Shown: positions 8,122 to 29,156, numbered from the stretch's first letter. The stretch is DNA of 56,293 nt from Bacillota bacterium (GCA_013314855.1 JABUEW010000009.1:1-56293), one strand, 5' to 3'. Notes: a model not told the origin generated them from the letters alone. Numbers and translations are program-made.

Positions 8122-8126
8122 ACAAA

Positions 8127-9550: not shown

Positions 9551-9568
9551 AACAAGCACCTCCATATT

Positions 9569-10006: not shown

Positions 10007-10032
10007 AATGTGACCTCCTTATTACATATTTA

Positions 10033-10096
10033 CGAGTATCATAAATTACGATACTCGAACTATAATAATCATACCACTTTTTAATATTATCATCAA
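10033..10096 (-). promoter_or_regulatory. Promoter and 25-bp palindromic operator of marR-fetA-fetB
   Basis: On the minus strand TTGATG (10096-10091) and TATGAT (10073-10068) are spaced by 17 bases. Just downstream lies a 25-bp palindrome at 10033-10057, with arms CGAGTATC and GATACTCG and an inner TAA/TTA, mismatched at one pair only. Its position over the transcription start fits MarR repression by blocking polymerase. Confidence 0.7.
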
Positions 10097-10204
10097 TAAA
10101 CTTTTATTATTTTTTTCCGAGTTATTATTTAACTTTCAAATCAGTTATAGTATTATAATTTATATTTGCGAAATATCGAAAATAAGAAAAGAGTAAAGTA
10201 ATAA

Positions 10205-10625: not shown

Positions 10626-10828
10626 AACTTTAGCGCTATTAAGATTGCTAATTACAGATGCTGGTAAGTTGTGGTACATATTACTCCGGATAGACAACCG
10701 GAACAACATCCTTCATAAAACTCGTAAATGAATATTTTTTGTATTTTTCGGATGAGCAAGGATAACTAAAACTATAAATTGCTACAGGTTGGGGTATCTC
10801 AGCAGATACTTAAAGTTGTTGACCGTTT

Positions 10829-11527: not shown

Positions 11528-11545
11528 CAAACTTCTCAAGAATCC

Positions 11546-11561
11546 CACGGCTTTAGCCGTG
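11546..11561 (+). repeat. IS605/IS200-type right-end hairpin
   Basis: CACGGC-TTTA-GCCGTG is a six-bp stem with a four-base loop, 19 bases after the broken tnpB. Such subterminal hairpins are where TnpA cuts and also form the 3' part of the TnpB guide RNA. The sequence GCGAAGTGTC right after it probably ends the element. The matching left end was not found. Confidence 0.65.
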
Positions 11562-11570
11562 CGAAGTGTC

Positions 11571-12008
11571 AAAAAAGTTTATAAGTACCTCAAGGAAGCT
11601 ATTGAAACTGGGAATTGCAGTGTTGTCAGAAGGAAGTAGAATATAAGCTCGTCAACTGGAATATGAAAATAAGAGAAACTATGAGAAAATTTAAGCTATA
11701 GGGCAAATTCTAAGAATAAAAGGGGTTAATTCGACTGAAATATTTTAAAAAATAAGACATTATGAGAAAAAACAATGCCGAACACTCAATAATTGATGGG
11801 TGTACGGCTATTTTGTTTTAGATTCATAATTCAAAAAAATCTGGAAATACTATTCTTGAACAAATAAGTTCCATCTTCAAAGCAACAAAATAGATATTTT
11901 GTTACATCATAAAAAACAAAAAAGAATAAGAATTTACGTTATATTATAGTAAGGCTGAGACAGCGGCTGTTAATATTAAGGGGATTAGTACATGAAGGGG
12001 ATGGGACA
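11571..12008. other. Intergenic region before the chemosensory operon
   Basis: About 440 bases hold no supported gene. A short open stretch (KVYKYLKEAIETG) near 11575 may be a remnant interrupted by the IS605-like element. A strong hairpin terminator lies at 11777-11819. The last 100 bases should carry the chemosensory operon promoter, but no clear -35/-10 or sigma-28 site could be singled out. Confidence 0.4.
11777..11819. terminator. Hairpin terminator, probably bidirectional
   Basis: The arms GCCG-A-ACACTC and GGGTGT-A-CGGC pair over ten positions with one A-A mismatch and enclose an AT-rich loop. A TATTTTGTTTT tail follows, and an A-rich tract precedes it. It separates the mobile-element debris from the chemosensory operon. 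Confidence 0.7.
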
Positions 12009-12242
12009 ATGCTTCAAATTATTGACGAGGAATTATTGAGGTACATAAAAAGCAGTGAGTCCGAATTCAATACTTTGGCTGAAATTCATAAGCTGCTTCT
12101 TCAAAACAATATTAAGTGTAGCATAGAAGAAATCCGCCAAAGGGTTGGCATGCTGTACCGGGATGGCTATCTAGGAAATGAACCTACAGGTGATGGTGTA
12201 AATATATACTATATCATTTTCCATCCGGAGTACCAGGAGTAA
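12009..12242 (+). CDS. Small predicted winged-helix protein heading the chemosensory genes
   Basis: The 77-residue product is an all-helical start followed by a wing-like end: LLRYIKSSESEFNTLAEIHK, CSIEEIRQRVGMLYRDGYLG, then a polar turn and VNIYYIIF. This resembles small winged-helix DNA-binding proteins, though I do not recognise a named family. The start ATG 12009 follows AAGGGGATGGG. It is in the same direction as the chemosensory operon, 180 bases before the receptor gene, and could regulate it (inference from position only). Confidence 0.5.
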   Translation: MLQIIDEELLRYIKSSESEFNTLAEIHKLLLQNNIKCSIEEIRQRVGMLYRDGYLGNEPTGDGVNIYYIIFHPEYQE

Positions 12243-12306
12243 ATTAACTAAAAACACCTTTTTTTCACAATAAAATTCTAGATTTATTTGTTGGACAGAT
12301 AATTGT

Positions 12307-12394
12307 GTTCGATAAATTGGACAAAACGGTTAAGTCTATATAAGTCTATAATCGAACGCTTTATCGGATAAACTTGTTCCTGTAAAAAAACAGG
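12307..12394 (+). promoter_or_regulatory. Leader/promoter region of the tandem MCP gene with nested repeats
   Basis: GTTCGATAAA (12307-12316) is partly complementary to ATCGAAC (12351-12357) and to TTTATCG just after it. A direct repeat AAGTCTATA occurs twice at 12332-12350. The TATAAT inside the second copy is a possible -10, without a clean -35. A small hairpin, CCTGT-(A)n-ACAGG, lies at 12379-12394 directly before the AAGGAGG site. These could be operator half-sites. No known riboswitch fold was recognised. Confidence 0.35.
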
Positions 12395-12422
12395 CTTATA
12401 ACATAAGGAGGTAGAATTGTTT

Positions 12423-14369
12423 ATGGAAAAAAAACTTGCAAAACCGTCAAACATTAAAGATGAAAAGGGAACAGCACATGTATCTGTTCAAACCGCTGAT
12501 GAAATGGAAAGGAAAAGAGAACTTGCCAGGAAGCAGGCACAAGATAAGGTAAAGGCCAGAACGCTGGCTAAGCAGCAGCAGTTGGCGGAAAGAATTGCAG
12601 CAGCTACAGAACAGCTTGCTTCTGGTATTGAGGAAGCCAGCAGTGCTGCGGAAGAACTTGGCGCTACAATGGCGCAGATAGCCAAGGGGGCTAGTGAGGC
12701 TTCTTCAGCGGCAGAAGAGTCAAGAGCCGCCATTAACCAGATAGACAAGGCTTCGGTAGTAGCTGACAAGAATGCAAAGGCATCCCTAGAAAGGGTGGAT
12801 GCTGCAAAGGAACTCACCGAGAATACCTCAAAGGACATAGAATTGTTGATAAAGGGGATAAAGGAATCCGCTGATAAAAACCTGGAATCGGTGAAACTGG
12901 TAGCGGAATTGGAGAGGCAGTCCAACGAGATAGGGGAAATCGTACAGGCAGTAGTCAGGATTGCTGACCAGACCAACCTGCTTGCGTTAAATGCCGCTAT
13001 AGAAGCTGCTAGGGCAGGTGAACACGGAAAAGGATTTGCGGTGGTAGCGGATGAAGTTAGGAATCTTGCCGAAACCTCAGAAAAGTCGGCAAGAAATATC
13101 AGGGAGCTTGTAAATGAAATACAAAATAATGTAAAAGTTGTTGTGGCCGATATAGAAAATTCAGGCAAAGTTGCCAATGAAGAAGTTGAAAAGGCAAAGA
13201 AAATTACTGAAGCCCTTGTGAAAATAAATGAGGAAATCGTTTTGGTACAAAAGGGCGTTGCTGAGATAGCTCAGAACGCGGCGGATGCAAATAAAGGAGC
13301 GGGTGAATTCCTTTCAATGGCTGAGCAAGTTGCGGCGGCTGCAGAGCAACAAAGCAGTGCTGCAGAGGAAGTGGAGAAGTCACTTCAGATGCAGAACAAA
13401 GCTTTTATTGAATTGAATGCAGCTGCGGCAGACCTGGCCCAGATGGCTGAAGACCTCAAGGTGTCTACAGATGCACAGAAATCCTCAGAGTCTCTTGCGG
13501 CCGCTGCCGAAGAACTGTCAGCAAATGTGGAGGAAGCAAATTCAACTGCGCAAGAGATATCAAAAGCTATGGAACAGATAGCTTCCGGTGCCAAGGCTCA
13601 GAGCGAGCTTACCGAGAAAGCTGCTACGTTGGCTGAAAAACTTGCCGTGGCTGCAAAACAAATGAACGAGAGGGCTAAATATTCAGAGGAAAAAGTAGCA
13701 GAACTTCAAAAATTGTTGGCGGACAATAAAATTGCAGTTGATAATATGATTGCCGGTATATCGTCCTCAGCAGATGCTAGTGTTGTGTCGGCTAAAAATA
13801 TAAAGAACCTAGAAGAAACCACCAGAAAAATTGATAAAATCGTTGATGCCATAGTCAATGTAACTATACAGACCAATATGCTGGCTGTAAACGGTTCTAT
13901 TGAAGCGGCAAGGGCAGGGGAATTTGGTAGGGGGTTCTCTGTAGTTGCCGGAGATATTAGGACTCTTGCCAATGAGTCTGCAGAAAATGCAGACAGGATT
14001 AAGGATCTTGTAAGAGGTATTCAAAACCAGATTCAAAGAGTTGCAGCCGATGTTGAACTTTCAAGTAAAACCTTATTCGCAGAGGTAGAAAAAGCAAAGA
14101 AGACAACTCACAATTTGAATGTGATTGAGGAAAGCATGGTGAAGATACTAGCAGGGTCAAGGGAAGTCCTAAAGGGTTCAGAGGAGTCACTGGTGGCTCT
14201 GGAGCAAGCAAGAAAGGGTGTAGAACAGATTGCTGCGGCTGCCCAGGAAGCCAGCAAGGGAGCCCAAGAGGCAGCTAATGCTGCAGCCGAACAGGCAAAA
14301 GGCTTGCAGGAATTGGCTGAAGCTATTGAAGAGATTTCCGGATTGGCCGACGAACTTCAAAATATGTAA
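12423..14369 (+). CDS. Soluble double-MCP chemoreceptor (DosM-like tandem signalling domains)
   Basis: The roughly 648-residue protein has no membrane segment and no recognisable ligand domain. After a charged, helical N-terminus of about 55 residues come two full MCP signalling hairpins back to back. Counting from the TTG at 12417, tip 1 lies at 171-220 ([18 protein letters not shown], then [13 protein letters not shown]) and tip 2 at 471-520 ([18 protein letters not shown], then [13 protein letters not shown]), exactly 300 residues apart. The second tip is altered where CheA and CheW bind. The TTG at 12417 is closer to AAGGAGG; ATG 12423 is an equally good start. In Vibrio cholerae a double-signalling-domain receptor (DosM) stabilises cytoplasmic arrays. 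By analogy this protein could scaffold such an array. Confidence 0.88.
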
Positions 14370-14387
14370 AGAACGGAGGGAATAGTT

Positions 14388-15875
14388 ATGGCTTCTGATA
14401 TAAACAGTGCCAGTTTTACCGAGCGTCAGCTGGTTACCTTCCTCCTCGGAGAAGATGAGTTCGGGGCCGATATCATGGATGTAAAGGAGATTATCAGGGT
14501 TCCTGAAATTACAAAAGTGCCAAATTCCCCCAGCTATATTGAGGGTGTATGCAACCTAAGGGGAAACATTCTACCTATCATAGATGGAAGAATGAGATTC
14601 GGTCTGGAAAAAAAGAAAAAGGATGAGAACAGCAGGGTGCTGGTCATTGATGTAGACGGTAAGGCAACAGGAATGATTGTAGATAGGGTTTCCGAGGTGA
14701 TGAGGGTAAATACGGCGGATATAGAGGAGACGCCGCAGATTGTAAAAAATGTGGATTCAGACTACCTGAACGGAGTTGTAAAGCTGGATAATGGAAACAG
14801 GCTTGTAATGCTTTTGGATGTTGTCAAGGCTGTAAATAAAGACAGCATAAGAATTAGTCATATGGGAGGGAAAAAAGAGGATATAGAAAAAAGTGGGATA
14901 AGGGAGGACAAAACAACTATTGAATCTTCTGAGGAAGAACAACTGGTTTCATTCCTGCTTGATAAAGAGGAGTTTGCCATTGGAATCATGCAGGTCAAGG
15001 AAATAATCCGCGTGCCTGAAATTGTAAAAGTTCCAAACTGTGAGGCTTATGTGGAGGGTGTAGTATCTATACGCAACAATTTACTTCCTATTCTAAACTT
15101 AAGAGTTTACTTTGGTATGGTACATAAAGAAATTACAGATCATACAAGGGTTCTTGTGGTGGATATGGGTAACTTTACAGCCGGAATCATGGTGGACAAG
15201 GTTTCGGAGGTTTTAAGGGTACCGGCAAGCATTATCCAGCCTCCCCCCAAATTTTCTAAACAAAGTAGAGAACAACTCAAGGGAGTGGCAAAACTGAATA
15301 ACGGCAAACGGATGATACTTATGCTTGAACCATCACAACTAATCTCTGTTGATGAGTACAGCTCAATCAGCAGTACAGCCGGAGTACAAGAACAGGCTGA
15401 ACAGGAAAAAAGCACTGAAAGGCAGTTAATTGACGAAGAACAGTTGGTCACTTTCAAAATTGATATGGAAGAGTACGGCATAAAGATAACTAATGTGCAG
15501 GAAATCAACAGGATGACGGAAGTTACCAGAATACCTCGGGCACCGTACTATATTGAGGGTATTGTAAACCTAAGAGGGAATATCATTCCAGCACTGGATT
15601 TAAGGAAGCTTTTCGGGCTTTCTGAAAAGCAAAAAACAGATGCAACAAGAATCATTATTGTTGATTTAAATGGTAAGAAAACCGGAATTGTAGTAGATTC
15701 GGTTTCAGAAGTTCTCCGGTTTGAAAAAACGCTGATTGAGCCCCCGCCGGACATATTAAGCAGCGGTATAGACAGTGACTATGTAGAAGGTGTCGGTAAA
15801 CTCAACGATGGCAAAAGAATGGTTCTAATACTGAATCTGGATAAGGTTTTGAGCTTTAATAAAGTTGCAGTTTAA
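14388..15875 (+). CDS. Triple-CheW coupling protein 1
   Basis: The 495 residues consist of three CheW domains joined by short acidic linkers, at about 10-150, 180-325 and 345-490. Each has the CheW pattern: QLVTFLLGEDEFGADIMDVK then EIIRVPEITKVPN in domain 1, SIRNNLLPILNLR in domain 2, and VQEINRMTEVTRIP with NLRGNIIPALDLR in domain 3. CheW bridges receptor tips to CheA. Three fused domains could link three sites in one lattice. It starts at ATG 14388 after CGGAGGG, 19 bases behind the receptor gene. A homologue with the same domain order closes the operon at 26167-27780. Confidence 0.9.
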   Translation: MASDINSASFTERQLVTFLLGEDEFGADIMDVKEIIRVPEITKVPNSPSYIEGVCNLRGNILPIIDGRMRFGLEKKKKDENSRVLVIDVDGKATGMIVDRVSEVMRVNTADIEETPQIVKNVDSDYLNGVVKLDNGNRLVMLLDVVKAVNKDSIRISHMGGKKEDIEKSGIREDKTTIESSEEEQLVSFLLDKEEFAIGIMQVKEIIRVPEIVKVPNCEAYVEGVVSIRNNLLPILNLRVYFGMVHKEITDHTRVLVVDMGNFTAGIMVDKVSEVLRVPASIIQPPPKFSKQSREQLKGVAKLNNGKRMILMLEPSQLISVDEYSSISSTAGVQEQAEQEKSTERQLIDEEQLVTFKIDMEEYGIKITNVQEINRMTEVTRIPRAPYYIEGIVNLRGNIIPALDLRKLFGLSEKQKTDATRIIIVDLNGKKTGIVVDSVSEVLRFEKTLIEPPPDILSSGIDSDYVEGVGKLNDGKRMVLILNLDKVLSFNKVAV

Positions 15876-15883
15876 CCGAATTT

Positions 15884-15922
15884 TACCCTCACGAGTGGGC
15901 AGATAATGCCTACTCGTGGGTA
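15884..15922 (+). repeat. Strong intercistronic hairpin between triple-CheW 1 and cheB
   Basis: TACCC(TC)ACGAGTGGGCA pairs with TGCCTACTCGTGGGTA around a five-base GATAA loop: an inner stem of about 12 pairs, then a small bulge and five more. No T-run follows, so it is not a normal intrinsic terminator. It may stabilise the upstream receptor-CheW mRNA or mark a processing site, allowing structural proteins to be made in excess of the enzymes downstream (inference). Confidence 0.55.
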
Positions 15923-15958
15923 GACCTGATTAATTAAGTATTTGCAGCAGGTGATGGA

Positions 15959-17035
15959 ATGAACGATAAAATAAAAGTACTGCTTGTAGATGACTCGGCC
16001 TTGATGAGAAAAGCGCTTAAGGAAATTATCGTGACAGACGGAAGCCTTGAAGTGGTGGGTACGGCAAGAGACGGACAGGATGCCATTGAAAAGGTGCATA
16101 AATTAAAGCCAGATGTAATTACCATGGATATCAACATGCCAATTATGGATGGTTTGACTTCCATGCAGTATATTTTGAACGATTATCCGGAAATACCTGT
16201 TCTAATAATAAGTTCCTTAACTACAGAAGGTGCATTGACTACCTTTGAAGCTTTGGAGCTTGGTGCTTTTGACTATGTTGCCAAACCTGCGGGGACTGTA
16301 TCCTCGAATATATATATTGTAGGAAGGGAAATTATACAAAAAATAAAAGTGGCATATAAGAGCGCCAATAAAAAAAGCATTAGAGAAAGGATTAAAAGGC
16401 GGAATGCTTCAGTTCAACCAAATAAGGTTGCACCTGTAAGAAAAGCGGATATATCGCAAAGTACGGGCCTTTCAAAAATTGTTGTCATTGGTATTTCTAC
16501 AGGTGGTCCGGGTACTTTGATGGAAGTCTTACCAATGCTTCCTCCCAACCTAAAAGCAGCAGTGATTGTAATACAGCATATGCCGCCATCATTTACATCT
16601 TCATTTGCAAAAAGGCTCGCTGATGCTTGTCAAATTCCGTTTAAGGAAGCAGAAGCGGGAGATATTCTTAGGGATGGCAGAGGATTCCTTGCCGCGGGAG
16701 GTTACCAACTGCTAGTGAGGCGTGAAAGAAATATGCTGCGCCTTTCAAACAATCCCAAGACTGTTTTTATGCCATCGGTTAATGTAACCATGGAATCTGT
16801 TTTAGATACATATGGAGGTAAAAATGTTATAGGTGTACTTATGACCGGCATGGGAGACGATGGGGCGGATGCAATGGTGAAAATAAGAGAAGCCGGGGGT
16901 ATTACAATTGCAGAAGACGAGTCTACAGCTGTGGTTTTCGGCATGCCTAGGGAGGCAATTGAAAGAGGTGGAGCAGAGATTGTAGTGCCGTCTTACAAGA
17001 TGGCCGATGAGATTGTAAAATCTGTTAATAGATAA
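15959..17035 (+). CDS. cheB: Chemotaxis protein-glutamate methylesterase CheB
   Basis: The 358-residue, two-domain protein removes methyl groups from receptor glutamates when phosphorylated. The receiver domain (1-125) has DD11-12, phospho-acceptor Asp57 in TMDINMPIMDG and Lys109 in VAKPAG. After a basic linker the methylesterase domain (about 172-358) shows the catalytic triad: Ser180 in GISTGGPGT, His207 in IQHMPPSFT and Asp301 in MTGMGDDGADA. GGTGATGG precedes the ATG. Together with cheR downstream it implies adaptation of the cytoplasmic tandem receptor. Confidence 0.94.
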   Translation: MNDKIKVLLVDDSALMRKALKEIIVTDGSLEVVGTARDGQDAIEKVHKLKPDVITMDINMPIMDGLTSMQYILNDYPEIPVLIISSLTTEGALTTFEALELGAFDYVAKPAGTVSSNIYIVGREIIQKIKVAYKSANKKSIRERIKRRNASVQPNKVAPVRKADISQSTGLSKIVVIGISTGGPGTLMEVLPMLPPNLKAAVIVIQHMPPSFTSSFAKRLADACQIPFKEAEAGDILRDGRGFLAAGGYQLLVRRERNMLRLSNNPKTVFMPSVNVTMESVLDTYGGKNVIGVLMTGMGDDGADAMVKIREAGGITIAEDESTAVVFGMPREAIERGGAEIVVPSYKMADEIVKSVNR

Positions 17036-17040
17036 CAGTT

Positions 17041-17157
17041 CGAAAATGGGGATGCTGTATCAACGGGCATAACAGTAAAATTATAGGTACAAATGAGGAA
17101 AATGCAGGCATGGTATTTGCAATAACGTTACCATTGATGGATAGGCGGTGGTTTTAG
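17041..17157 (+). pseudogene. Possible histidine-kinase C-terminal remnant
   Basis: One frame reads GHNSKIIGTNEENAGMVFAI then TLPLMDRR before TAG 17155-17157. This resembles the last block of a sensor kinase ATPase domain (GGKIxxxSxxxxGxxFxxTLPL). An adjacent frame carries FENGDAVSTG. The piece is only about 35 residues, so the call is tentative. Its stop overlaps the likely GTG start of the next gene (TAGTG), as if the two had once been translationally coupled. Confidence 0.35.
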
Positions 17158-18563
17158 TGAATTCAATGCTCCTGGCATATTTGGAGGAGACGGAAGACAT
17201 GTTTCAGAAGGCTGAAGAATGTCTTATAAGGCTTGAGAAAGGTTATTCAACTGAAGATGTCAATGAACTTTTCAGAATTGCACATACCATTAAGAGTTCC
17301 TCCTATATGGTAGGATATGAGGATATAGGTAATTTGATGCATAAAGTGGAGGATATGCTGGATTGTGTCAGAACAGGAAAAATTAAGTTTGACCCGAACT
17401 TAGTTTCTCTTTGCTTTGAAGGTTTTGATACTGTTAAAATGATGTTGCAGTGCAAGAAGAATCTTGATGGTGAATCAGACAGAGCAAATCTTGCTAACGC
17501 TGTCTTAAAAGTTAGTAAAATGATAGATTCTTCCTTAAAATTATCTACAAAAAAGGAAGAAAAAATTCTTGCAAAGCAAAAGGAAGGTGGAATTGTTACT
17601 TCACTTCTAAACAAAAAACGGTTTGGCAAGAATATGTTCTACATATATTTTATTATAGAAAAAGATGCTCCTATGGTTTCTCCTGTTTTTATGATGATTC
17701 TCAAAAGCGTTGAAAGTGTCGGGTCTCTTGTTTACACAAGCATCTCTGATGAATATCTGTCCGGCTCTTATTTATGCGAGGATATCAGAATATGTGATGT
17801 TATTCTAAGCACAGACCTTGATGAAGCTGAACTTTACGCCTATTTTAACCTGTCCTACGTTGAAAAAATAAATGTGGTAAATATATCAAGAAGGAAAATG
17901 GACGAAAATGACATTCCGCTCACTCAGACAAACCAAACCATATTTGAAATATTTTTCGATGGTTATATAAAACTCTATCATTTGCTTTTTAAACAGCCTA
18001 TGGAATTTGGTTCCCGTGAGGGGGAAACGGCACGGCTTCAGCAGTGGTATACATATATAAATAATTTTATCGGTAAGATGGAGCCAAATAAAGCGATCAT
18101 GAGTTTTGCTGAAGAAATCAATGCATTGTATAATCTTATAATATACTTCATAGCAGAACATGTTAAGGAAAGTGAAATGCTTGAATCATTTATACGGGAT
18201 CAGTACACCAAATTGCTGGAAAAAGCTTACAAATATGTACGGGGTAAATTTATATATGGACTGTTCAGACCCAGAAATAAAGAATTTATCTCAAGATTCA
18301 AAGAGTATATTGGACTGGTGAATAAGTCATTCATCAGGAAAATATTCCTTGATATGAGGGAGATTTCAGTTGTAGAAGTACATGAACTAAAAGAATTGAT
18401 CGATGAAAAAAGACAATTAGAACGGCAAGGAATTGAAATAAATATTATTGCAAATGGACCGTATGCAAGGAGAATTATAAATATATTTGATTCAATTAAA
18501 TCAATAGAGGAATTCAAGATGTTCAGTACCGAGTTGGATGCGGTTATAGGTAGAGGTATATAG
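17157..18563 (+). CDS. Hpt / CheA-P2-like protein without kinase domain
   Basis: This protein of about 468 residues begins with an Hpt domain carrying the phosphorylatable His in FRIAHTIKSSSYMVG (residue 43 from GTG 17157). After a Lys-rich linker comes a segment like the CheA P2 response-regulator-binding domain (MFYIYFIIEKDAPMVSP, then a helix LKSVESVGSLVYTS). The last 230 residues are helical and unrecognised. The dimerisation, ATPase and CheW-like parts of CheA are absent. It therefore cannot phosphorylate itself and more likely relays or drains phosphate between CheA and the receivers. A GTG at 17148 is possible, but 17157 is better placed after GGCGGTGG. Confidence 0.75.
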   Translation: MNSMLLAYLEETEDMFQKAEECLIRLEKGYSTEDVNELFRIAHTIKSSSYMVGYEDIGNLMHKVEDMLDCVRTGKIKFDPNLVSLCFEGFDTVKMMLQCKKNLDGESDRANLANAVLKVSKMIDSSLKLSTKKEEKILAKQKEGGIVTSLLNKKRFGKNMFYIYFIIEKDAPMVSPVFMMILKSVESVGSLVYTSISDEYLSGSYLCEDIRICDVILSTDLDEAELYAYFNLSYVEKINVVNISRRKMDENDIPLTQTNQTIFEIFFDGYIKLYHLLFKQPMEFGSREGETARLQQWYTYINNFIGKMEPNKAIMSFAEEINALYNLIIYFIAEHVKESEMLESFIRDQYTKLLEKAYKYVRGKFIYGLFRPRNKEFISRFKEYIGLVNKSFIRKIFLDMREISVVEVHELKELIDEKRQLERQGIEINIIANGPYARRIINIFDSIKSIEEFKMFSTELDAVIGRGI

Positions 18564-18629
18564 GTATTAAGTATACAAATTTGAAGTACAGGAGTAATAT
18601 AATTTCCCAAAACAAGGAGGGGTAGACGG

Positions 18630-19049
18630 ATGAGCGATTACAGTATCATGATTGTTGACGATGAGGAAGGCATACTGGAGAATTTAAAAAAGAGTCTTGT
18701 CCTTGCGGGCTATAAAAAGGTGGAAACTTACTCAAGTCCTATTAAGGCAATGGAGATATTTAAGGAAAAGAAGTACCATATTGTTTTGGCGGATATTGTA
18801 ATGCCCGAAATGGATGGTATTGAATTTCTAAAGGAGGTAAGAGGGTATGATCCTATGACACAGGTAATTATGATGAGTGGTTTTTCTACCATCGACAAGA
18901 TTCTGTCGTGCCTGGAATATGGTGCGAATGACTGTATCTTAAAACCCTTCAAGAACGACAATTGTGTATTGGAAGTTGTAGAGTATTCTGTGAAAAAGCT
19001 TGATAGATGGAAGGAAGCTATTAAAGGTGTCGTAAAGATAGCCTTGTGA
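18630..19049 (+). CDS. Single-domain response regulator (CheY-like), copy 1
   Basis: The 139-residue receiver has DD10-11, phospho-acceptor Asp55 in VLADIVMPEMDG, Ser83 in MMSGFST and Lys105 in LKPF. It has no output domain. The short C-terminal extension is basic (KKLDRWKEAIKGV). It starts after AAGGAGGGG and its stop lies just before the HEAT-repeat gene start, so the two are made together. Compared with the CheY at 21758 it has a tail that could contact the HEAT protein or the Hpt protein (inference). Confidence 0.9.
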   Translation: MSDYSIMIVDDEEGILENLKKSLVLAGYKKVETYSSPIKAMEIFKEKKYHIVLADIVMPEMDGIEFLKEVRGYDPMTQVIMMSGFSTIDKILSCLEYGANDCILKPFKNDNCVLEVVEYSVKKLDRWKEAIKGVVKIAL

Positions 19050-19063
19050 AGAGGATGTGTATC

Positions 19064-20923
19064 ATGAGCAAGAATAAAACAGGGTTCGATCAAAAAGAAC
19101 TGGCAGCCCTTATTGAAAGGCTGGTAAGAGAAAAAGAAAGGCATCAACAGGAAAAGATTGCACGAAAAATCGGAGAGATGAAACATGAGCAGACTGCAGA
19201 ATGTGTTGCTGAACTGCTTTATTCAGATGATGCTTACGTACGCAATATAGCCATTGAGATACTGATATATCTTGGGGAAAAGGCACTGCCTGTTCTGGAA
19301 AGGAAACTGTATGACAAGAATAGAAATATAAGGAAATTTTCACTGGATGCATTAAGGAATATAAGAACAATTCAAAGCTGTGAAATGGCATTAAAGGCTC
19401 TTGATGACCCTGATGAAAATGTAGTGGAGGCGGCTATCGAGGTTATTATGGAACAGCAATATGCCGATGCATCAGGAAGGCTTGTAGAGATGTTGAAGAG
19501 GACAGACAGCGTATGGGTTCTTGATGCATTGATCAGGGCATTTGGCAGACTTGGGGCAAAAGGTATCGCAGATGAAATTGAAGAAAAGATATTAAGTCTC
19601 AATGCAACTACTATTGAAAAAAACATTCTGATAAATACATTGGTTAAAAGCCTTGGAACTATTGGTTCATCTCAGGATATAGAAAAGATTTTGAATACTT
19701 ATTCAGTACAATACATGGTGAATGATTCGAATCTGATTTTTGGATTAAGTGGTCTTATAGTAAACAATAATGTAAGCATACTTCCAAATGAAGTTATTTT
19801 AAAAATTGAAAATATTTTCAAGAAGTACCGGGATTACAGCGATGCGGAACTAACACTACTTTTAATAGCTGCTTCAGTTAAACTTAAGCTTGTATTTTTC
19901 CTGGACGATGTTAAAGAAATAGTTTCCTTGCATAAAAGAGAGGAATTTTTTATTGAAAATCTTCTTGACCTTATTTGCAATTTAAATAATATTCCCCATG
20001 ATTTTGTAAGTAAAATGCTATATAGTGAGGAACGTGAATTAATACTAATTGGGCTTAATCTGATATATAAAAAGCATATATGCGGATTTAATAGCATAGT
20101 TGAAGAACTGTGCTATTCTGAAGACAATGAGATATCGAAATTGGCAATAAATATTATTTCAGACCTGGATTGCTACAAGAATATCTGCTTACTTGAGAAC
20201 TTTACGGATTTTAACGAAGAAGCGGCAAAAATTGCTGTTGAAGGCGTAAACGTACTAGATGCTAATACGATTGATTTTCTTTTTTCAAAACTTGAACACA
20301 AAAGTCAGAAAGTCAGGAAGGCTGCATCTGCGAAGCTTATTTCTCTTGCAAGTGAAATATGTATAGAAAGGCTTGAGGGAATTGTAAAGCGTAACCATGG
20401 TGAAGAAGGGCTTGAAGCACTGGAGGTTATGTTTAGGTTTGACAGAAATCTCGCATGGAAATATATAGCTGCCAGAATGGATAGCTGGGACGATAAGGTT
20501 AGAGCAGGACTGGTTGATATTATTGAAGATTCGGATGACAGCACTTTCTACAATTTTATGGAAACAATGGTGAATGATCCCTCTTATATGGTGAGAAAAA
20601 AGGCAATAAAGGCTTTATGTAAGAGGATAGAAGATAGAAGTTTGCAATTGCTTGAAAAATTATTGCAGTACGAATCTAACGTCGCAAACAGGAAAGATAT
20701 TATCTCAAATCTATACAAATTTAACAATGACAAAGCGTTAAAAATAGCAATGGATGCGGCAGGAAGCAGCAACCCATTAATTCGGATTGCGGCAGTAAAG
20801 TCACTGGAATTGTTTAATGATGAACGGGCAAATAGTGTACTTAGAGAAATGTTGAAGGACCAGGTCGAGGAAGTGAGAAAATTGGCAGAAAGAGCATTAC
20901 ACAGGGGAGAGATGATTGAGTGA
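19064..20923 (+). CDS. HEAT/PBS-lyase-type repeat protein inside the chemosensory operon
   Basis: The roughly 619 residues are almost wholly alpha-helical repeats of 30-35 residues, such as DDAYVRNIAIEILIYLGEKA, LYDKNRNIRKFSLDALRNIR, DPSYMVRKKAIKALCKRI and SSNPLIRIAAVKSLELFNDE. The VRxxAxxAL signature marks HEAT-like repeats, which form a curved protein-binding solenoid. N- and C-terminal repeat blocks flank a more diverged middle (about 200-380). ATG 19064 follows AGAGGATG; a GTG at 19046 would overlap the previous stop. It ends in a GTGA overlap with cheR. A scaffold or adaptor role within the array is likely; its partner is unknown. Confidence 0.8.
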   Translation: MSKNKTGFDQKELAALIERLVREKERHQQEKIARKIGEMKHEQTAECVAELLYSDDAYVRNIAIEILIYLGEKALPVLERKLYDKNRNIRKFSLDALRNIRTIQSCEMALKALDDPDENVVEAAIEVIMEQQYADASGRLVEMLKRTDSVWVLDALIRAFGRLGAKGIADEIEEKILSLNATTIEKNILINTLVKSLGTIGSSQDIEKILNTYSVQYMVNDSNLIFGLSGLIVNNNVSILPNEVILKIENIFKKYRDYSDAELTLLLIAASVKLKLVFFLDDVKEIVSLHKREEFFIENLLDLICNLNNIPHDFVSKMLYSEERELILIGLNLIYKKHICGFNSIVEELCYSEDNEISKLAINIISDLDCYKNICLLENFTDFNEEAAKIAVEGVNVLDANTIDFLFSKLEHKSQKVRKAASAKLISLASEICIERLEGIVKRNHGEEGLEALEVMFRFDRNLAWKYIAARMDSWDDKVRAGLVDIIEDSDDSTFYNFMETMVNDPSYMVRKKAIKALCKRIEDRSLQLLEKLLQYESNVANRKDIISNLYKFNNDKALKIAMDAAGSSNPLIRIAAVKSLELFNDERANSVLREMLKDQVEEVRKLAERALHRGEMIE

Positions 20924-21744
20924 TTTTAGACGATCAATTGTTTGACAAATTTGTAAAGTTGATTTATAAGAAAACAGGAATATATTATGATTGCAATAAA
21001 AAGTATTATGTTCAAAAAAGGCTTGAAAAACGTGCTGAAGCCTTGGAGATGGAAACATTGGACGACTATTACCAGATGCTTAAATTTACTGATGACCCAT
21101 TAGAGTTTGAAAAACTGATTAATGAACTTACGGTAAATGAAACATATTTTTTTCGTGATTTTCCGCAGCTTAGGAACTTTGCTGAAGACGTCCTGCCTTT
21201 GGTTGTAAGAGAAAAAAGGAATAGTAGAAGGCTCAAGGTGTGGAGTGCAGCGTGTTCCACTGGAGAAGAACCCTATACTTTATCCATTATTCTTCAAGAA
21301 ATGTTTGACAATCCTGATGAGTGGGAATTGCAGATTCTTGCTTCCGACATAAATACAGAAGTACTGCATTTTGCCAAGATCGGATTGTATGAGAACAGGG
21401 CAATCAAGGATGTGCCGCCTGAATATTTGGAAAAATATTTTACAAAGCGTCATGACAAGTACCTTGTTAATCTTAATGTTCGAAGGCTTGTTACATTCAA
21501 GCGGATAAATCTGGTGGACGAATATGAAATGAGCGGTGTAAGAGGGTGTGATTTTATATTCTGCAGAAATTGTCTTATATATTTTGATGATGAATCAAGA
21601 AGAAGTGTTTTATCAAGTTTTTATGAGAGCTTGAATCCTGGAGGTTTTATATTTCTCGGGTACTCGGAGTCAGTAGGAAGGATATCGTCAGCTTTTAAAG
21701 TTCAAAGAATAGGGGATTCAATAGTTTATTCAAAACCAAAATGA
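20920..21744 (+). CDS. cheR: Chemotaxis protein methyltransferase CheR
   Basis: The 274-residue enzyme methylates receptor glutamates using S-adenosylmethionine. It has the N-terminal helical CheR domain, NETYFFRD (73-80), the SAM-binding block WSAACSTGEEPYTLSI (108-123) and FIFCRNCLIYFDD. It starts at GTG 20920, overlapping the HEAT-repeat stop. There are no C-terminal TPR repeats or pentapeptide-binding extension. The substrate is presumably the soluble tandem MCP. Confidence 0.94.
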   Translation: MILDDQLFDKFVKLIYKKTGIYYDCNKKYYVQKRLEKRAEALEMETLDDYYQMLKFTDDPLEFEKLINELTVNETYFFRDFPQLRNFAEDVLPLVVREKRNSRRLKVWSAACSTGEEPYTLSIILQEMFDNPDEWELQILASDINTEVLHFAKIGLYENRAIKDVPPEYLEKYFTKRHDKYLVNLNVRRLVTFKRINLVDEYEMSGVRGCDFIFCRNCLIYFDDESRRSVLSSFYESLNPGGFIFLGYSESVGRISSAFKVQRIGDSIVYSKPK

Positions 21745-21757
21745 GGGGAGAGGTAAT

Positions 21758-22126
21758 ATGAGGCAGGATACTAAAAAAAGAATTCTGATTGTTGACGATT
21801 CTGAAATGGTCAGGAATTTCCATAGCTATATTATTAGAATGTTTGGTTATCAGACCGGAACTGCCGAAAATGGAGCTGTTGCTTTGGAAAAGTTGCTTAC
21901 TGAAGAGTACCAGTTACTTGTAACGGATATAAATATGCCGAAAATGGACGGTTATGAATTGATAAAAAACGTACGAGAAAATGGTATTTCTATTCCTGTT
22001 ATTGTAGTTTCTACCGAAGAAGAATACAAGTTAAGATTCAGCGGAGAAGAGCTTGGACCCAATTTGCACATTGTAAAGCCGACAGACCCTGAAAAGTTGA
22101 TAATGGCAATTAAAATGCTTCTTTAG
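21758..22126 (+). CDS. cheY: Single-domain response regulator CheY, copy 2
   Basis: The 122-residue receiver has DD13-14, phospho-acceptor Asp57 in VTDINMPKMDG, the Ser/Thr switch VVSTEEE (85-86) and Lys107 in IVKPTD. GAGGGGAGAGG lies before ATG 21758 and cheA follows 18 bases after its stop. Gene order makes it the direct partner of CheA. No motor or pilus target is encoded in this window, so its output is unknown. Confidence 0.93.
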   Translation: MRQDTKKRILIVDDSEMVRNFHSYIIRMFGYQTGTAENGAVALEKLLTEEYQLLVTDINMPKMDGYELIKNVRENGISIPVIVVSTEEEYKLRFSGEELGPNLHIVKPTDPEKLIMAIKMLL

Positions 22127-22144
22127 TGCTAAGGAGTGTGGATT

Positions 22145-24382
22145 ATGAGCAACAGTTTTTATCTTGAAGATGTTGATTTGATTAAAATGTTTATTGATGA
22201 GTGGACTGAATGCCTGGAAGGACTTGAAAAGGAAATACTAAAGCTTGAAGTTCATTGGGATGACGGCGAACTGTTAAATGATATTTTAAGAAGGGTTCAC
22301 AATATAAAAGGAGGGTCTTCCTTTGTGGGACTATCCTGTATAACAAAGCTCAGCCATGAGATAGAATTTACGCTGAATGCAATACGAAAGGGAAATACAT
22401 CTGTTAATTTGGAACTTATAGATAGTTTGCTGCAGGCTGTAGACCTTTTAAACGGTTACATCGTCCAGCTTTACGAGAAATTGAAAGAATATGATTTGTC
22501 CGGTGAAAAGGGAGCAATTCATATAGAGTTTGTAAATAGTGAGAAAGAAAAGTCGGTTCTGGAAGGCTTAAAGCAGGCACTGGAAAAGAGTGAAAAAAAT
22601 GAGAAGGAAGACGATGGGAAACCCGGGGGGAAAGAGGAGCAAGAAGAAGTCGGACTGGAGATACTGCAGACGGAGGAGTTTAAAAGCAGGCTGGCAGAGG
22701 GAATGAAGGAGCAGTTTCTCCTTGAAGGCACTGAACATGTTGAGCGGATTGAGAACCAATTGTTAATACAGCTGGATATTAATGGAGATGACAGGGATGT
22801 TATTCATGAAATGTTCAGGGCTATTCACAGCATTAAAGGCGGGATAGGAATTTACCTGGCAACGATAACTCATCAAAGTCCATATTATTCGGCATTAAAA
22901 CAATTTTCCGAAGTGGTGCATACTTTTGAAAGCTTGCTAGCGCTGATAAGGGACAAGGAACTTACATTTGAAAAAAAACTCATCGATTTGAGTTATGAAG
23001 TGATAGATTATTTAAAGACTTCCATGAGTGCTGTTGCTTCTGAGGAATGCCATAACATTCCTGCAAGCGGTATTCTTGATAGAATTGACAGATATATATC
23101 GTACCTTCAATCCGTACCGGACAACAATACAAAGACTCCTGCAAAACCGCTCAGAGATGACCAAGGAGAGATTACTGATCTACAGCGAAAAGGCAATATA
23201 ATACAGAGCATCCGCGTAAGTCAGGAAAAACTGGATAAAATGATGGACATGATATCAGAGTTAATAATTGCTAAAAATGCATTTATGCACATTTCATCAA
23301 GGTTAAATCTTGAATATGACCTTCCTGAAATGTCAAAAGAAGTAAAAGAGGTAGGGCTTTATATAAATAGAATCTCTGATGAACTTCAAAATACCATTAT
23401 GTCTATAAGGATGGTAGAAATTAAAACAATATTTCAAAGAATGCCAAGAGTTGTAAGGGATATATCCCAGAGCACGGGAAAGAAGATGAAATTGATTATG
23501 GAGGGTGAGGATACAGAGATTGACAAGACAATAATTGAACAGATCAGTGACCCTTTAGTCCATTTAATACGCAATGCTGCAGACCATGGTATTGAGATTC
23601 CGCAAGAGCGATTGGCGAAAGGGAAACCTGAGACGGGAAGAATTGTGCTGAGAGCTTACAATAAGAACAAGTATGTGTATATTGAAATAGAAGATGATGG
23701 TAAAGGAATCGATGCGGAGAAGTTGAAGGAAAGAGCGGTTGAAAAAGGCTTCATCACTGAAACAGAAGCCGAAAAGATGAACCGAAGCCAGTTGATAAAT
23801 CTTATATTCCTTCCCGGCTTCAGTACAGCAAAACAGGTTACTGAGGTGTCAGGGCGGGGAGTAGGGATGGATATTGTAAAAAGCAATATAGAAAAGATCA
23901 ATGGAAATATTGCTATTGAAAGTGAAGTAGATAAGGGAACAAAAATGATAATTCAACTGCCTCTCACTCTTGCAGTTTCACGCGGTTTGATTGTTGAGGT
24001 ATCCGGTGAAACATATATTTTCCCCTTGGAGTATATTGTTGAAACTGTAAAAATTAACCAAAAAAATATCCACACATTTAACGGAAAGTGCTTTGTACAT
24101 CTCAGAAAAGATATTATTGGGGTTGAATGGCTTTGCAAGATTTTCCTAACAGGAGACAGAGATATGGAAAAGGAAGAATTGAATGCGGTTATTATATCAA
24201 ACGGCGTAGAAAAATACGCAATTATTGTAGACAAATTTAAAAGCGAACAGGAATTCGTTGTAAAAACATTAGACGGGCAACTTGCGGCTATTCCGGGTAT
24301 ATCCGGCTCAACTCTGCTGGGTAATGGACAGGTTGTTCTGATTGTGAATCCGGTAGATATTATACAGCTTGCACAGAAATAA
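22145..24382 (+). CDS. cheA: Chemotaxis histidine kinase CheA with two Hpt domains
   Basis: The roughly 745-residue protein has these parts (numbered from the in-frame GTG 22136): Hpt 1 with His55 in RRVHNIKGGSSFVG; a charged linker 130-180; Hpt 2 with His231 in RAIHSIKGGIGIY; dimerisation helices about 355-430; HATPase with N box HLIRNAADHGIEIP, G1 DDGKGID and G2 GRGVGMDIV; and a CheW-like P5 domain to the C-terminus. No clear P2 domain is present, unlike the Hpt protein at 17157, which has a P2-like part. ATG 22145 follows AAGGAG and is the likely start. Confidence 0.94.
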   Translation: MSNSFYLEDVDLIKMFIDEWTECLEGLEKEILKLEVHWDDGELLNDILRRVHNIKGGSSFVGLSCITKLSHEIEFTLNAIRKGNTSVNLELIDSLLQAVDLLNGYIVQLYEKLKEYDLSGEKGAIHIEFVNSEKEKSVLEGLKQALEKSEKNEKEDDGKPGGKEEQEEVGLEILQTEEFKSRLAEGMKEQFLLEGTEHVERIENQLLIQLDINGDDRDVIHEMFRAIHSIKGGIGIYLATITHQSPYYSALKQFSEVVHTFESLLALIRDKELTFEKKLIDLSYEVIDYLKTSMSAVASEECHNIPASGILDRIDRYISYLQSVPDNNTKTPAKPLRDDQGEITDLQRKGNIIQSIRVSQEKLDKMMDMISELIIAKNAFMHISSRLNLEYDLPEMSKEVKEVGLYINRISDELQNTIMSIRMVEIKTIFQRMPRVVRDISQSTGKKMKLIMEGEDTEIDKTIIEQISDPLVHLIRNAADHGIEIPQERLAKGKPETGRIVLRAYNKNKYVYIEIEDDGKGIDAEKLKERAVEKGFITETEAEKMNRSQLINLIFLPGFSTAKQVTEVSGRGVGMDIVKSNIEKINGNIAIESEVDKGTKMIIQLPLTLAVSRGLIVEVSGETYIFPLEYIVETVKINQKNIHTFNGKCFVHLRKDIIGVEWLCKIFLTGDRDMEKEELNAVIISNGVEKYAIIVDKFKSEQEFVVKTLDGQLAAIPGISGSTLLGNGQVVLIVNPVDIIQLAQK

Positions 24383-24416
24383 TTAATTATAAATTTAAAA
24401 ATAAAAGGATAATAAA

Positions 24417-24917
24417 ATGACTAGGAGGGTAATAGAGATAATAACTATGAGGGTAATAGAGAGGGATTATATTGAGTTTTTTAAAGATTCTATAAGGAAA
24501 TCTTTTGAGGATATGTTTGAAGAGGAAATAATATTGGAAAGCGAGACTTCAGCCCCAAGATGGATATCATCGAAGGGGGCCGCCGTTATTATCGGGATAT
24601 CAGGCGTAAAAAAAGGAAGGGTTCTTCTTGACATGTGCCTTGACACTGCATTGGAGCTTGCCCAAAAACTTGATTCCGATTTTAACGATGAGGATCTTGC
24701 TCTTTTCACCATTGCCGAATTTTGCAATATTGCTTCAGGAGGGGCTATAACCATGATAAACGACAAATTTAGTGGAAGAGGTTTAAGACTGGCGTCTCCG
24801 AGTATTTTTGCCGGAACGAATGCTAGGCTTTTCTCTCCAAAACTGGATTCTGTATTATTGTCTTATTATACACGGTTCGGGAATATTGATTTTTATATCG
24901 GCTTTGGAGGAGAATGA
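24417..24917 (+). CDS. CheX-like CheY-P phosphatase, copy 1
   Basis: The 166-residue protein has the CheX fold and the phosphatase-type ExxN motif (Glu101-Asn104 in IAEFCNIASGGAITM). The family removes phosphate from CheY. The 5' end contains a short direct repeat (GAGGGTAATAGAGA occurs twice), so a later ATG at 24447 (MRVIERDY) is also possible. Its stop overlaps the start of a second CheX-like gene by four bases. The motif context AEFCN differs from the GELTN of copy 2, so one copy may be less active. Confidence 0.82.
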   Translation: MTRRVIEIITMRVIERDYIEFFKDSIRKSFEDMFEEEIILESETSAPRWISSKGAAVIIGISGVKKGRVLLDMCLDTALELAQKLDSDFNDEDLALFTIAEFCNIASGGAITMINDKFSGRGLRLASPSIFAGTNARLFSPKLDSVLLSYYTRFGNIDFYIGFGGE

Positions 24918-25381
24918 AGGTGGACAAAAAATATATATGTCCTTTTGTAAATTCTATTTCGAAAGTATTTGCCAGTTTTGGGCTTGGAAAAATTGTAAGT
25001 GGAAGTGTTTACAAGAAAGATTCATTTATCTGTAAGTACAACCTTACAGTTATTATTGGTATATCCGGAAAAATGAAGGGAAATATTGCATTAAGTATGC
25101 CGTATGATACAGCCAAAAGAATTGCTTCAGTCATGATGATGGGGATGGAAATAACAGAGATAGATGAAATGTTGGTAAGTGCATTGGGAGAACTTACAAA
25201 CATAATTTGCGGACAGGCTGCCACTGAGTTTTCATTGCAAAATTTGGTTAAAGAAGTTACTCCGCCTACAATAGTTTATGGGGACATGATGAAGGCTGTT
25301 ATCAGCCAGGTTGAGACAACAGTAGTTGAGCTGAGTACTCAAATGGGAAATATTGAGCTAAATCTGGGTCTTAAAATATGA
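24914..25381 (+). CDS. CheX-like CheY-P phosphatase, copy 2
   Basis: The 155 residues carry the canonical CheX motif LGELTNIICGQA with Glu93 and Asn96, preceded by VIIGISGKMKGNIALSMP. It starts at ATG 24914 inside the end of copy 1. The two adjacent copies are diverged paralogues and could act as a heterodimer, since CheX works as a dimer in known cases. Two phosphatases match the two single-domain receivers of this operon. Confidence 0.88.
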   Translation: MKVDKKYICPFVNSISKVFASFGLGKIVSGSVYKKDSFICKYNLTVIIGISGKMKGNIALSMPYDTAKRIASVMMMGMEITEIDEMLVSALGELTNIICGQAATEFSLQNLVKEVTPPTIVYGDMMKAVISQVETTVVELSTQMGNIELNLGLKI

Positions 25382-25409
25382 CTTTTATTCTACCAGGGGG
25401 TTCATTCAT

Positions 25410-26186
25410 ATGACTAGCAAACTTAAGAAATATGCTGTATTTAACAATAAGGGAGGTGTCGGCAAGAGTACGATTGCAGTGCATGTTGCTCATGGACTAG
25501 CACTTAAAGGTAAGAAAGTATTATTGATAGATTTGGACGGACAAAATGATGCCGGTCTTTTTCTTGGATTTACGTCGGAAGATTATAAAAAGACTTTTTA
25601 TGATTTTTTTGATAGGTTTGGGAATACCAAGGTTTCAGAATGTATCATCCATGCAAGAGAAAACCTGGATTTGCTGCCTTCAAAAAATTTAGATAGAATT
25701 AATGCTGAGCTATACAGAGAGTCCAGAATAGATGTAGTTTTAAAGGAAAAATTAAAAGATTTGGAATATATGGGCTACAATTACGTGATCATCGACTGTG
25801 GACCTCAGCGAAGCAAAATCAATGATGCAGTTTTGTGCTTTGTGGACGGAATTATTGTACCTGTGCAGCTAGAAGCAGCTTCTGTAAGAGCTATTGGGAA
25901 TATTTACGAGTATCTTTCGGATTTGAAACTGGATTCAGACATGGTTTCTCTGATAGTGCCCAACATGTACGATCAAAGGACTATTGATGGAAAAGAAAAC
26001 TTGGGGTTTATTAAAGAGTTTTTTGCAGGTACTGATTTGCTGACTCACCCCGTCCACAGGAGGATTAAGATTACGGAAGCAGGCAAGCTGGGAAAAACTG
26101 TATATGAATTTGATGAAGAGTCTTCAAAGCAATTTAATCATATTGTTGAAAGGCTGGTGAACATTGATGCCAGGGCGGAACAGTAA
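25410..26186 (+). CDS. ParA/MinD-family ATPase in the chemosensory operon
   Basis: The 258-residue protein has the deviant Walker A KGGVGKST (Lys14, Lys19), IDLDGQND where ParA proteins usually have DPQ, and the Walker B-like VIIDCGPQ. ParA proteins dimerise with ATP, bind DNA or membrane and place cargo. In Rhodobacter sphaeroides the ParA-like PpfA segregates a cytoplasmic chemosensory cluster, and ParC does so for polar arrays in Vibrio. No parB or parS was seen. The end overlaps the triple-CheW 2 gene by 20 bases, so positioning of this array is the natural inference. Confidence 0.9.
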   Translation: MTSKLKKYAVFNNKGGVGKSTIAVHVAHGLALKGKKVLLIDLDGQNDAGLFLGFTSEDYKKTFYDFFDRFGNTKVSECIIHARENLDLLPSKNLDRINAELYRESRIDVVLKEKLKDLEYMGYNYVIIDCGPQRSKINDAVLCFVDGIIVPVQLEAASVRAIGNIYEYLSDLKLDSDMVSLIVPNMYDQRTIDGKENLGFIKEFFAGTDLLTHPVHRRIKITEAGKLGKTVYEFDEESSKQFNHIVERLVNIDARAEQ

Positions 26187-27780
26187 AAAAAGCCAGAATA
26201 ATTTTGAAAAGATAAAAAGGGAAATGAATAGAAAGAAGCAGAAAGCTGACGGCTTAAAAAATGATTTTGACTTAAAGGCTGAATTGGAAGAACGGAACAT
26301 GGTTGAAGGAGTGCCGAAGGATGAAGAAAGGGATTCGGCAAAGGATAAGAAAATTGAGATGGTGGTGTTCCGCGTCGGAGAAGAAGAATTTGCATTTATA
26401 TTAAGCAATGTGAAAGAAATTATCAGGGTGCCTGCCATGATGAAAGTTCCTAATACACCTCCTTATATTGCCGGTTTGTGTAGCTTGAGAGGAGAGCTGT
26501 TGCCTGTCATTGACAGCCATAAGTTGTTTGGTATACCTGACAAGGAATACAATGAGAGCAGCAGAATTATTGTTACCGATATGAATGGCAAGAAGGTTGG
26601 AATGATATCGGATAAGGTTTCGGAGGTATTAAGTACGGAGGAAATATACATAAAAGAGACGCCAGAGAGCATTAGGGAGATTAATGGAGGAGTTATCAGC
26701 GGTATACTTGTGCTTGACAATGGAAAAAGAATAATCATGATTCTTGATGCTGAAAAAATTGTAAAAGCCGGAGAGCTCGACAGCCATGCAAATTATCAGA
26801 ACGGACTACTAAAAATGGAACTGGAGGGTTCAAACACAAAAATTGAGGAAGAACAAATAATTATTTTTGCCGTAGGAAATGAAGAGTATGCTGTCAATAT
26901 AAATGATGTAAAAGAAATCATAAGGCTTCCTAGTATAATGAAGGTTCCAAATACCGCAAATTATATTGAAGGGGTTCTTTCTATCAGAAACCATCTTCTT
27001 GCAGCAATCAATCTGGGAAAACTTTTGAATGTAAATTGCAAAGAGCCGGATGAATACAGCCGTGTTATAATCATTGATACAGGAAGCTTCACATACGGTG
27101 TTATTGTTGACAGGGTGTTAGAGGTTGCTCATATAAAAAAGGATTCATTCAAGAAGCATTTTCAGATTGCAATCAGTAAGGGTACAGAGTTCATCAAAGG
27201 GTTTGTTAATCTGAATAATGGCAGAAGACTTGTAATGGTGCTGGAAACCAATAAGATAGTAAATTTTAATGATTTAACCGGTATTTGCGATGGCGGACGG
27301 AAAGAAGACGTTAAGGATAACTCAGTGGAGCTAGATTTAAATGATTATAGTATTGAGCATATTGTAATATTTAAAATTGCAAATGAAGAATATGGAATCA
27401 GGATCAATTATGTTCAAGAAATTAACAGAATGAGCGAACTTGTGCGCTTCCCAGGTGCTCCTGCTTTTATTGAGGGAATGGTTGATTTGAGGGGAGAAGT
27501 AATTCCTATACTCAATCTTAGAACACTGTTTGCGATAACAGATATACATTCTCTTGACTCTTCCAAATTTTTAGTTATAGAGTATCAAAAAAAGAAGATA
27601 GGTATTTTGATAGATTCGGTTTCTGAAATTTTGAGGTTTTCAAACGAGCTTCTTGAAGAAGCTCCGGAGGTGATTTCCGTAAGTGATAAAAATAGATATA
27701 TTGATTCTATTGCCAAACTTAGTGATGGCAAAAGAGTTATTCTAATACTTAACCTTGCTGTAGTACTCAATTTTATGTAA
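26167..27780 (+). CDS. Triple-CheW coupling protein 2
   Basis: The roughly 537 residues start with a very basic and acidic tail (about 1-58) absent from copy 1. Three CheW domains follow at about 60-200, 225-365 and 390-537. Domain signatures match copy 1 one-to-one: EIIRVPAMMKVPN, then SIRNHLLAAINLG, then VQEINRMSELVRFP with DLRGEVIPILNLR. It starts at ATG 26167, inside the parA gene, after GGTGA. The charged tail is a candidate for binding the DNA-associated ParA or the receptor (inference). Confidence 0.9.
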   Translation: MPGRNSKKSQNNFEKIKREMNRKKQKADGLKNDFDLKAELEERNMVEGVPKDEERDSAKDKKIEMVVFRVGEEEFAFILSNVKEIIRVPAMMKVPNTPPYIAGLCSLRGELLPVIDSHKLFGIPDKEYNESSRIIVTDMNGKKVGMISDKVSEVLSTEEIYIKETPESIREINGGVISGILVLDNGKRIIMILDAEKIVKAGELDSHANYQNGLLKMELEGSNTKIEEEQIIIFAVGNEEYAVNINDVKEIIRLPSIMKVPNTANYIEGVLSIRNHLLAAINLGKLLNVNCKEPDEYSRVIIIDTGSFTYGVIVDRVLEVAHIKKDSFKKHFQIAISKGTEFIKGFVNLNNGRRLVMVLETNKIVNFNDLTGICDGGRKEDVKDNSVELDLNDYSIEHIVIFKIANEEYGIRINYVQEINRMSELVRFPGAPAFIEGMVDLRGEVIPILNLRTLFAITDIHSLDSSKFLVIEYQKKKIGILIDSVSEILRFSNELLEEAPEVISVSDKNRYIDSIAKLSDGKRVILILNLAVVLNFM

Positions 27781-29115: not shown

Positions 29116-29156
29116 TTTTACCACCTTTTCTTAATTTATCTGGAATTGATAGCTAA

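Follow-up and report, generated by a model that had tools for sequence, protein, structure and literature searches.

We describe here a chemosensory operon in a 56,293-nucleotide stretch of DNA from a Bacillota bacterium (GCA_013314855.1, contig JABUEW010000009.1), referred to below as the window, which is one contig (C9) of a 4.4-Mb genome in 252 contigs. Fourteen genes, all on the plus strand, were called between positions 12009 and 27780 (Table 1), with domains assigned by Pfam and NCBIfam. The Pfam matches comprise a tandem MCPsignal (E 1e-65), three CheW domains in each of two proteins, CheB, Hpt, two Response_reg, HEAT, CheR, a CheA with two Hpt domains, two CheX, and a ParA-like AAA_31, and by reading of the translations CheB, CheA, CheX, the receivers, and ParA each have their catalytic residues. 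A preliminary description of this DNA had recognized a soluble chemosensory system here, and the genes it named are all found where it placed them, on the plus strand and with strong Pfam or NCBIfam scores. It overlooked the gene for an Hpt-P2-STAS protein, however, which is the main clue to an output, although its view that the output is open still holds.

The operon is a complete chemosensory operon of class F9 in a Firmicutes form, and is thus of a kind already known; what is new is a set of three cassettes that come and go as units, together with the roles proposed for them. Two components are the signatures of F9, the receptor DosM, which has a double signalling domain and no sensor, and the triple CheW protein CheW3 (Mo et al. 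2022; PMC9321776). Both are encoded in the window, by a DosM gene lacking any sensor or membrane part and by genes with three concatenated CheW domains, and the gene order is common to the window and to F9-type clusters of other phyla. Of 2,781 genomes, 64 carry F9 systems, which have been transferred many times (PMC9321776). The combination had been put forward as not previously described, and that claim does not survive, as DosM and the triple CheW define the class (PMC9321776, PMC7534058) and proteobacterial F9 clusters carry HEAT and ParA genes at matching places in the gene order (five of five and two of five, respectively).

Table 1. Genes of the F9-class operon in the window
Feature	Position	Strand	Basis
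77-residue conserved small protein, possibly winged-helix	12009..12242	+	Homologues in relatives
DosM, two MCP signalling domains, no transmembrane or ligand domain	12423..14369	+	Pfam, hydrophobicity
CheW3a, three CheW domains, without N-terminal tail	14388..15875	+	Pfam
CheB, receiver and methylesterase, S-H-D catalytic residues by reading	15959..17035	+	Pfam, reading
Hpt, CheA-P2-like, helical bundle, and STAS-like protein, 471 residues	17148..18563	+	Pfam, AlphaFold2 (AF2), Foldseek
REC-a, stand-alone receiver, partner of the Hpt-STAS protein	18630..19049	+	Pfam, fusions in relatives
HEAT-repeat solenoid, 625 residues	19046..20923	+	Pfam
CheR methyltransferase	20920..21744	+	Pfam
REC-b, CheY-like receiver	21758..22126	+	Pfam
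CheA, two Hpt domains (both with His), dimerisation, kinase, and CheW domains	22136..24382	+	Pfam
CheX-a phosphatase, ExxN motif by reading	24417..24917	+	Pfam, reading
CheX-b phosphatase, ExxN motif by reading	24914..25381	+	Pfam, reading
ParA-type ATPase, deviant Walker A KGGVGKST	25410..26186	+	Pfam, reading
CheW3b, basic N-terminal tail MPGRNSKKSQNNFEKIKREMNRKKQKA followed by three CheW domains, gene overlaps parA	26164..27780	+	Pfam, tail profile

The cluster recurs with largely the same gene order in about 30 other genomes and is therefore not a chance assembly; the homologues are strongly co-conserved rather than scattered, and the order DosM-CheW3-CheB-...-CheR-(CheY)-CheA is preserved in nearly all clusters. 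Several families within the taxonomic order of the source organism have tandem-receptor orthologues that are 77-87% identical, but the listed genome of the same genus or family has none, and the closest named orthologue is 89% identical (L023). In a scan of 84,980 species the receptor was detected in Acetobacterium and other named Clostridia, in Paenibacillaceae, Heliobacterium, and Desulfosporosinus, and in Desulfobacterota, where identity is 45-52% across the C-terminal half. Nor is the combination peculiar to Clostridia, as Paenibacillaceae, Heliobacterium, Desulfosporosinus, Desulfobacterota, and Proteobacteria carry it too. Five proteobacterial clusters on large plasmids or replicons (in Methylosinus, Sphaerotilus, Methylobacterium, Azospirillum, and Eleftheria) have the order DosM-CheW3-CheB-HEAT-CheR-CheY-CheA as in the window, with HEAT in all five, ParA downstream in two, and an adjacent single-domain methyl-accepting chemotaxis protein (MCP) in three; their HEAT proteins are short, however, at 178-214 residues versus 625 in the window, and they lack Hpt-STAS, the CheX pair, and CheW3b. 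The likeness to cluster I of Vibrio cholerae (DosM VC1403, triple CheW VC1402, CheA VC1397) is one of description rather than of direct sequence comparison, and lies in a soluble system, sporadic across phyla, with a sensorless double-signalling receptor, a triple CheW, CheA, CheB, CheR, and CheY; the window adds Hpt-P2-STAS with its receiver, two CheX proteins, and another triple CheW that carries a ParA-type tail, but has no partner receptor within the operon.

Phylogenetic trees bear on whether these systems have a common origin. The Firmicutes CheAs of F9 clusters form one clade (100/98), but their junction with the proteobacterial F9 CheAs is without support in a tree that has weak deep forks and long branches and leaves out the Vibrio CheA and the genome's own flagellar CheA. 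This counts against the F9 assignment and is one of two points in favor of a new chemosensory class, unrelated to F9 and assembled in Clostridia through domain fusion, the other being the absence of Hpt-STAS, the CheX pair, and CheW3b from the five proteobacterial clusters. We regard such a class as very improbable, and mostly refuted, in that the DosM spacing, the signature of its second tip, the triple CheW, and the gene order are all common across phyla. The tree of CheW domains likewise gives no support to a common triplication across phyla, and domain 3 of CheW3b nests inside domain 3 of Firmicutes CheW3a (97/96), such that we favor an origin of CheW3b by duplication within the Firmicutes lineage with gain of the tail.

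A few clusters depart from the general pattern. In the single-contig genome carrying L018 (G005; 5743-17174) the DosM, Hpt-STAS, and CheA genes are each frameshifted and CheX is missing, and the cluster seems either to be decaying or to contain sequencing errors. In the Desulfobacterota-type clusters L048 (2329-7282) and L049, the CheW domain is hit four times in one CheW protein, and a second, shorter but complete CheA takes the position of the Firmicutes Hpt-STAS protein.

DosM itself has two MCP signalling domains in a 650-residue protein with no transmembrane or hydrophobic segment. Its open reading frame (ORF) can be read from a TTG at 12417, although the alternative ATG at 12423, preceded by AAGGAGGT, is most likely the start. 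Tip 1 is canonical and tip 2 is a variant, with a signature that begins QT(N/G)MLAV(N/S), ends in (F/Y), and is common to Firmicutes, Desulfobacterota, and Proteobacteria. The tips are exactly 300 residues apart in 40 of 40 sequences (about 37 distinct loci in three or more phyla), down to 46% identity, whereas the N-terminus varies freely. Fixed spacing of this kind would be expected of a rigid element that keeps two base plates apart, and a fixed 300-residue rod predicts a constant spacing of the layers. The F9 array of V. cholerae is described as two opposed layers held by DosM, without known function (Ortega et al. 2020; PMC7534058). We also note that a tandem-receptor ORF of 807 residues in L019 (8522-10945) opens with several membrane segments and is possibly a membrane-tethered DosM or a chimera, and that in L031 and L044 DosM lies in two ORFs that break near the middle between the signalling domains, which could be an error or a true split.

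The first cassette consists of ParA and a tailed CheW protein. The deviant Walker A motif KGGVGKST of ParA is evident by reading, and the protein scores above the cut-off for Pfam AAA_31 and below that for NCBIfam ParA_partition. At every locus with this ParA, in 13 distinct genomes, the following gene encodes a tailed CheW protein; except in one broken copy, the two genes overlap by 8-23 bp. The N-terminal extension is 56-131 residues long and opens with a motif resembling MPGRxSKKxxxNFEK(I/M)KxEMxxKKQKA, and average identity is 55% over its first 32 columns compared to 16% in the rest. In G006 and Pseudobacteroides the tail is kept on a protein with one CheW domain instead of three, whereas CheW3a, which does not adjoin ParA, lacks a tail of this kind. 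The tail profile matches in 10 of 10 genomes with this ParA and in none of 16 without it at comparable scores, although the profile was built from the loci that it finds and the counts ignore common descent.

Cargo adaptors contact ParA-type ATPases through N-termini that are charged and disordered (PMC10241942), 37% of 206 species have homologues of the ParA-type protein PpfA in their che operons (PMC2829493), and Vibrio ParP, which serves a ParA-type ATPase as adaptor, has a CheW-like domain linked to an N-terminal region that binds ParC (PMC5706961). CheW3b resembles these partners in its position next to ParA and in the charge of an N-terminus joined to CheW cargo, and we infer from these features that it is an array-embedded cargo adaptor for ParA. 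In PpfA/TlpT of Rhodobacter and ParC/ParP of Vibrio, too, a che operon encodes a ParA-type ATPase along with a partner embedded in the array. Those partners are a receptor (TlpT) and a protein with a single CheW-like AIF domain (ParP), whereas the partner here has three CheW domains (rarely one) and a short basic tail. An alternative function for the tail would be direct binding to DNA, tethering the array to the nucleoid as in FrzCD, with ParA being a remnant of a mobile element or a chromosomal protein. A basic tail alone can bind DNA, and FrzCD is reported to bind the nucleoid by a positively charged N-terminus (PMC5716589). A tail acting alone should persist where ParA is missing, however, and its strict pairing with ParA in both directions and the near-universal gene overlap make this explanation unlikely.

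The second cassette pairs the HEAT protein with the CheY beside CheA, REC-b. Among the 30 clusters in which the CheB-CheA interval is visible, 19 have both, 10 have neither, and one has CheY only, and Acetobacterium tundrae has two clusters, L032 and L027, one with the pair and one without it. In Halobacterium salinarum, the HEAT_PBS protein OE2401F, encoded in the che region, was identified together with CheY, CheD, and Fla proteins, and switching is lost when it is deleted (PMC2666748). By analogy, the F9 HEAT protein may be a partner of CheY or an output adaptor; OE2401F differs in being archaeal and in working with DUF439 proteins, and we do not claim orthology.

The third cassette consists of REC-a and the Hpt-P2-STAS protein, which is 471 residues long, could start at a GTG at 17157, and has an invariant Hpt histidine. 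In an AF2 model built from an 18-row alignment (mean predicted local distance difference test, pLDDT, 82), Foldseek relates the N-terminus to CheA P1 and a P1-CheY/P2 complex, the middle to P2 of Thermotoga maritima CheA (template-modelling score 0.85 on the target); STAS domains are matched by the C-terminus with probability near 1. Fusions to a receiver are observed in both orders (loci L022 and L044), at the C-terminus of the Hpt-P2-STAS protein in Aneurinibacillus and ahead of the STAS half in a Clostridiaceae metagenome-assembled genome.

The company that this cassette keeps in relatives is suggestive of partner switching. In Petroclostridium (L051), Pseudobacteroides (L017/L038), and G006 (L016), genes for RsbR, RsbS, and RsbT lie between CheB and the REC-a/Hpt-STAS pair, along with genes for an RsbX-like HATPase-SpoIIE protein and a histidine kinase; the Heliobacterium cluster (L034) also includes an RsbR-S-T-X and histidine kinase set, and L014/L020 have RsbS, RsbT, and a histidine kinase. 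These identities come from Pfam for L051 and part of L014 and L034, and from reading for the remaining loci. The likeness to the RsbRST stressosome therefore lies in the STAS-like domain of the window's Hpt protein and in the enclosed Rsb sets of relatives, but the window's cluster contains no RsbR, RsbS, or RsbT and its STAS domain has no evident phospho-serine motif. We propose with moderate confidence, on the basis of these domains and neighbors, that REC-a and Hpt-P2-STAS form a phosphorelay arm that ends in partner switching. The broader proposal, that F9 output is a partner-switching stress pathway and not a motor, running through REC-a and Hpt-P2-STAS to a STAS/anti-sigma-type switch (a stressosome where present) while ParA shares arrays between daughters by the CheW-borne basic tail, is speculative and rather less probable. 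We found no paper tying F9 to HEAT, Hpt-STAS, or the stressosome, in a search that did not extend to subscription papers or supplements and so does not prove absence from the literature.

A conserved protein of 78-87 residues, encoded immediately after cheA, overlaps the cheA stop codon in the proteobacterial F9 clusters (L072-L076). It was considered as a mini-STAS similar to the C-terminus of the Hpt protein, but hhalign gives this a probability of 0.1%.

Taken together, a cytoplasmic, two-layer F9 array positioned by ParA, with putative CheY/HEAT and STAS outputs, is the model we consider likely, and the earlier proposal of a soluble array built on a DosM-like receptor and positioned by ParA remains the best reading. 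DosM would act as a rod with a receptor tip at each end that separates two opposed CheA/CheW base plates, in an array that is free in the cytoplasm, as shown in V. cholerae and as we suppose by analogy for the source organism. CheW3a would be an ordinary base-plate scaffold, and the CheW3b domains would also lie in the base plate with the basic tail predicted to engage ParA, which would place or partition arrays over the nucleoid. Adaptation would be by CheR and CheB. CheA would phosphorylate both receivers, with REC-b probably working with the HEAT protein, as the halobacterial HEAT protein is needed downstream of CheY, and REC-a with the Hpt-P2-STAS arm, which likely ends in partner switching and not in a motor alone; the two CheX phosphatases would reset the receivers. 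As DosM has no sensor domain, sensing is expected to come from other soluble receptors joining the array, and two with C-terminal sensors are encoded in the genome, L066 (zinc-binding CZB) and L060 (Cache-like, N-terminus uncertain), which are candidate sensory partners of DosM.

Several observations weigh against this model, in addition to the limits of the CheA tree and the tail profile. Three hundred helical residues would span about 45 nm, more than the 35 nm height reported for the V. cholerae array (PMC7534058). The association of HEAT and CheY (Fisher p 4e-7) is calculated without regard to common descent. The STAS assignment has a Foldseek E of only about 0.05-0.1 and a sequence match under the Pfam cut-off, and no RsbR (RsbRD_N) is present in the window's genome, such that the stressosome link is through relatives only. 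The evidence for the source organism is computational.

The array could instead be a flagellar input, in which REC-b acts on the FliM switch alongside flagellum-linked chemotaxis, and HEAT, STAS, and ParA are accessories only. A second CheA and FliM are encoded together on one contig (C16), so the genome has a flagellar system of its own, and 97% of F9 species carry flagellar genes (PMC9321776). However, the 10 clusters without CheY beside CheA still keep REC-a and Hpt-STAS, and deletion of the F9 cheA in V. cholerae had no detected phenotype (PMC7534058), and we consider a purely flagellar role possible but doubtful. F9 arrays are visible by tomography yet have no known function, and the Firmicutes clusters contain genes absent from the proteobacterial F9 clusters examined that are testable output candidates (Hpt-STAS with the stressosome, and HEAT with CheY). 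ParA and its CheW-borne tail are similarly a testable candidate for array inheritance, and several carriers of these clusters are named, cultured strains; Petroclostridium sp. X23, Lutispora thermophila, and Heliobacterium are among the culturable ones.

The 77-residue ORF at the start of the operon is a real conserved gene as judged by its sequence, with 59-78% identity in relatives, and often lies immediately 5' of DosM in Clostridia and Paenibacillaceae clusters. It was considered as a transcription factor, but its winged-helix matches are weak (AF2 mean pLDDT 74), and we do not assign that role. An Rfam search upstream of the operon revealed no riboswitch or other known RNA, and promoter and terminator scans gave results near chance level. 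The 3' flank (28312-30557) contains aminotransferase and chorismate-binding enzyme genes on the opposite strand. Just 5' of the operon, at 10885-11570, a TnpB-type transposon gene survives as a remnant whose end carries a hairpin (gaatcccacggctttagccgtgcgaag), and at 10205-10625 there is a fragment of a flavin-disulfide reductase or NADH-oxidase-like gene in two frames, apparently a pseudogene.

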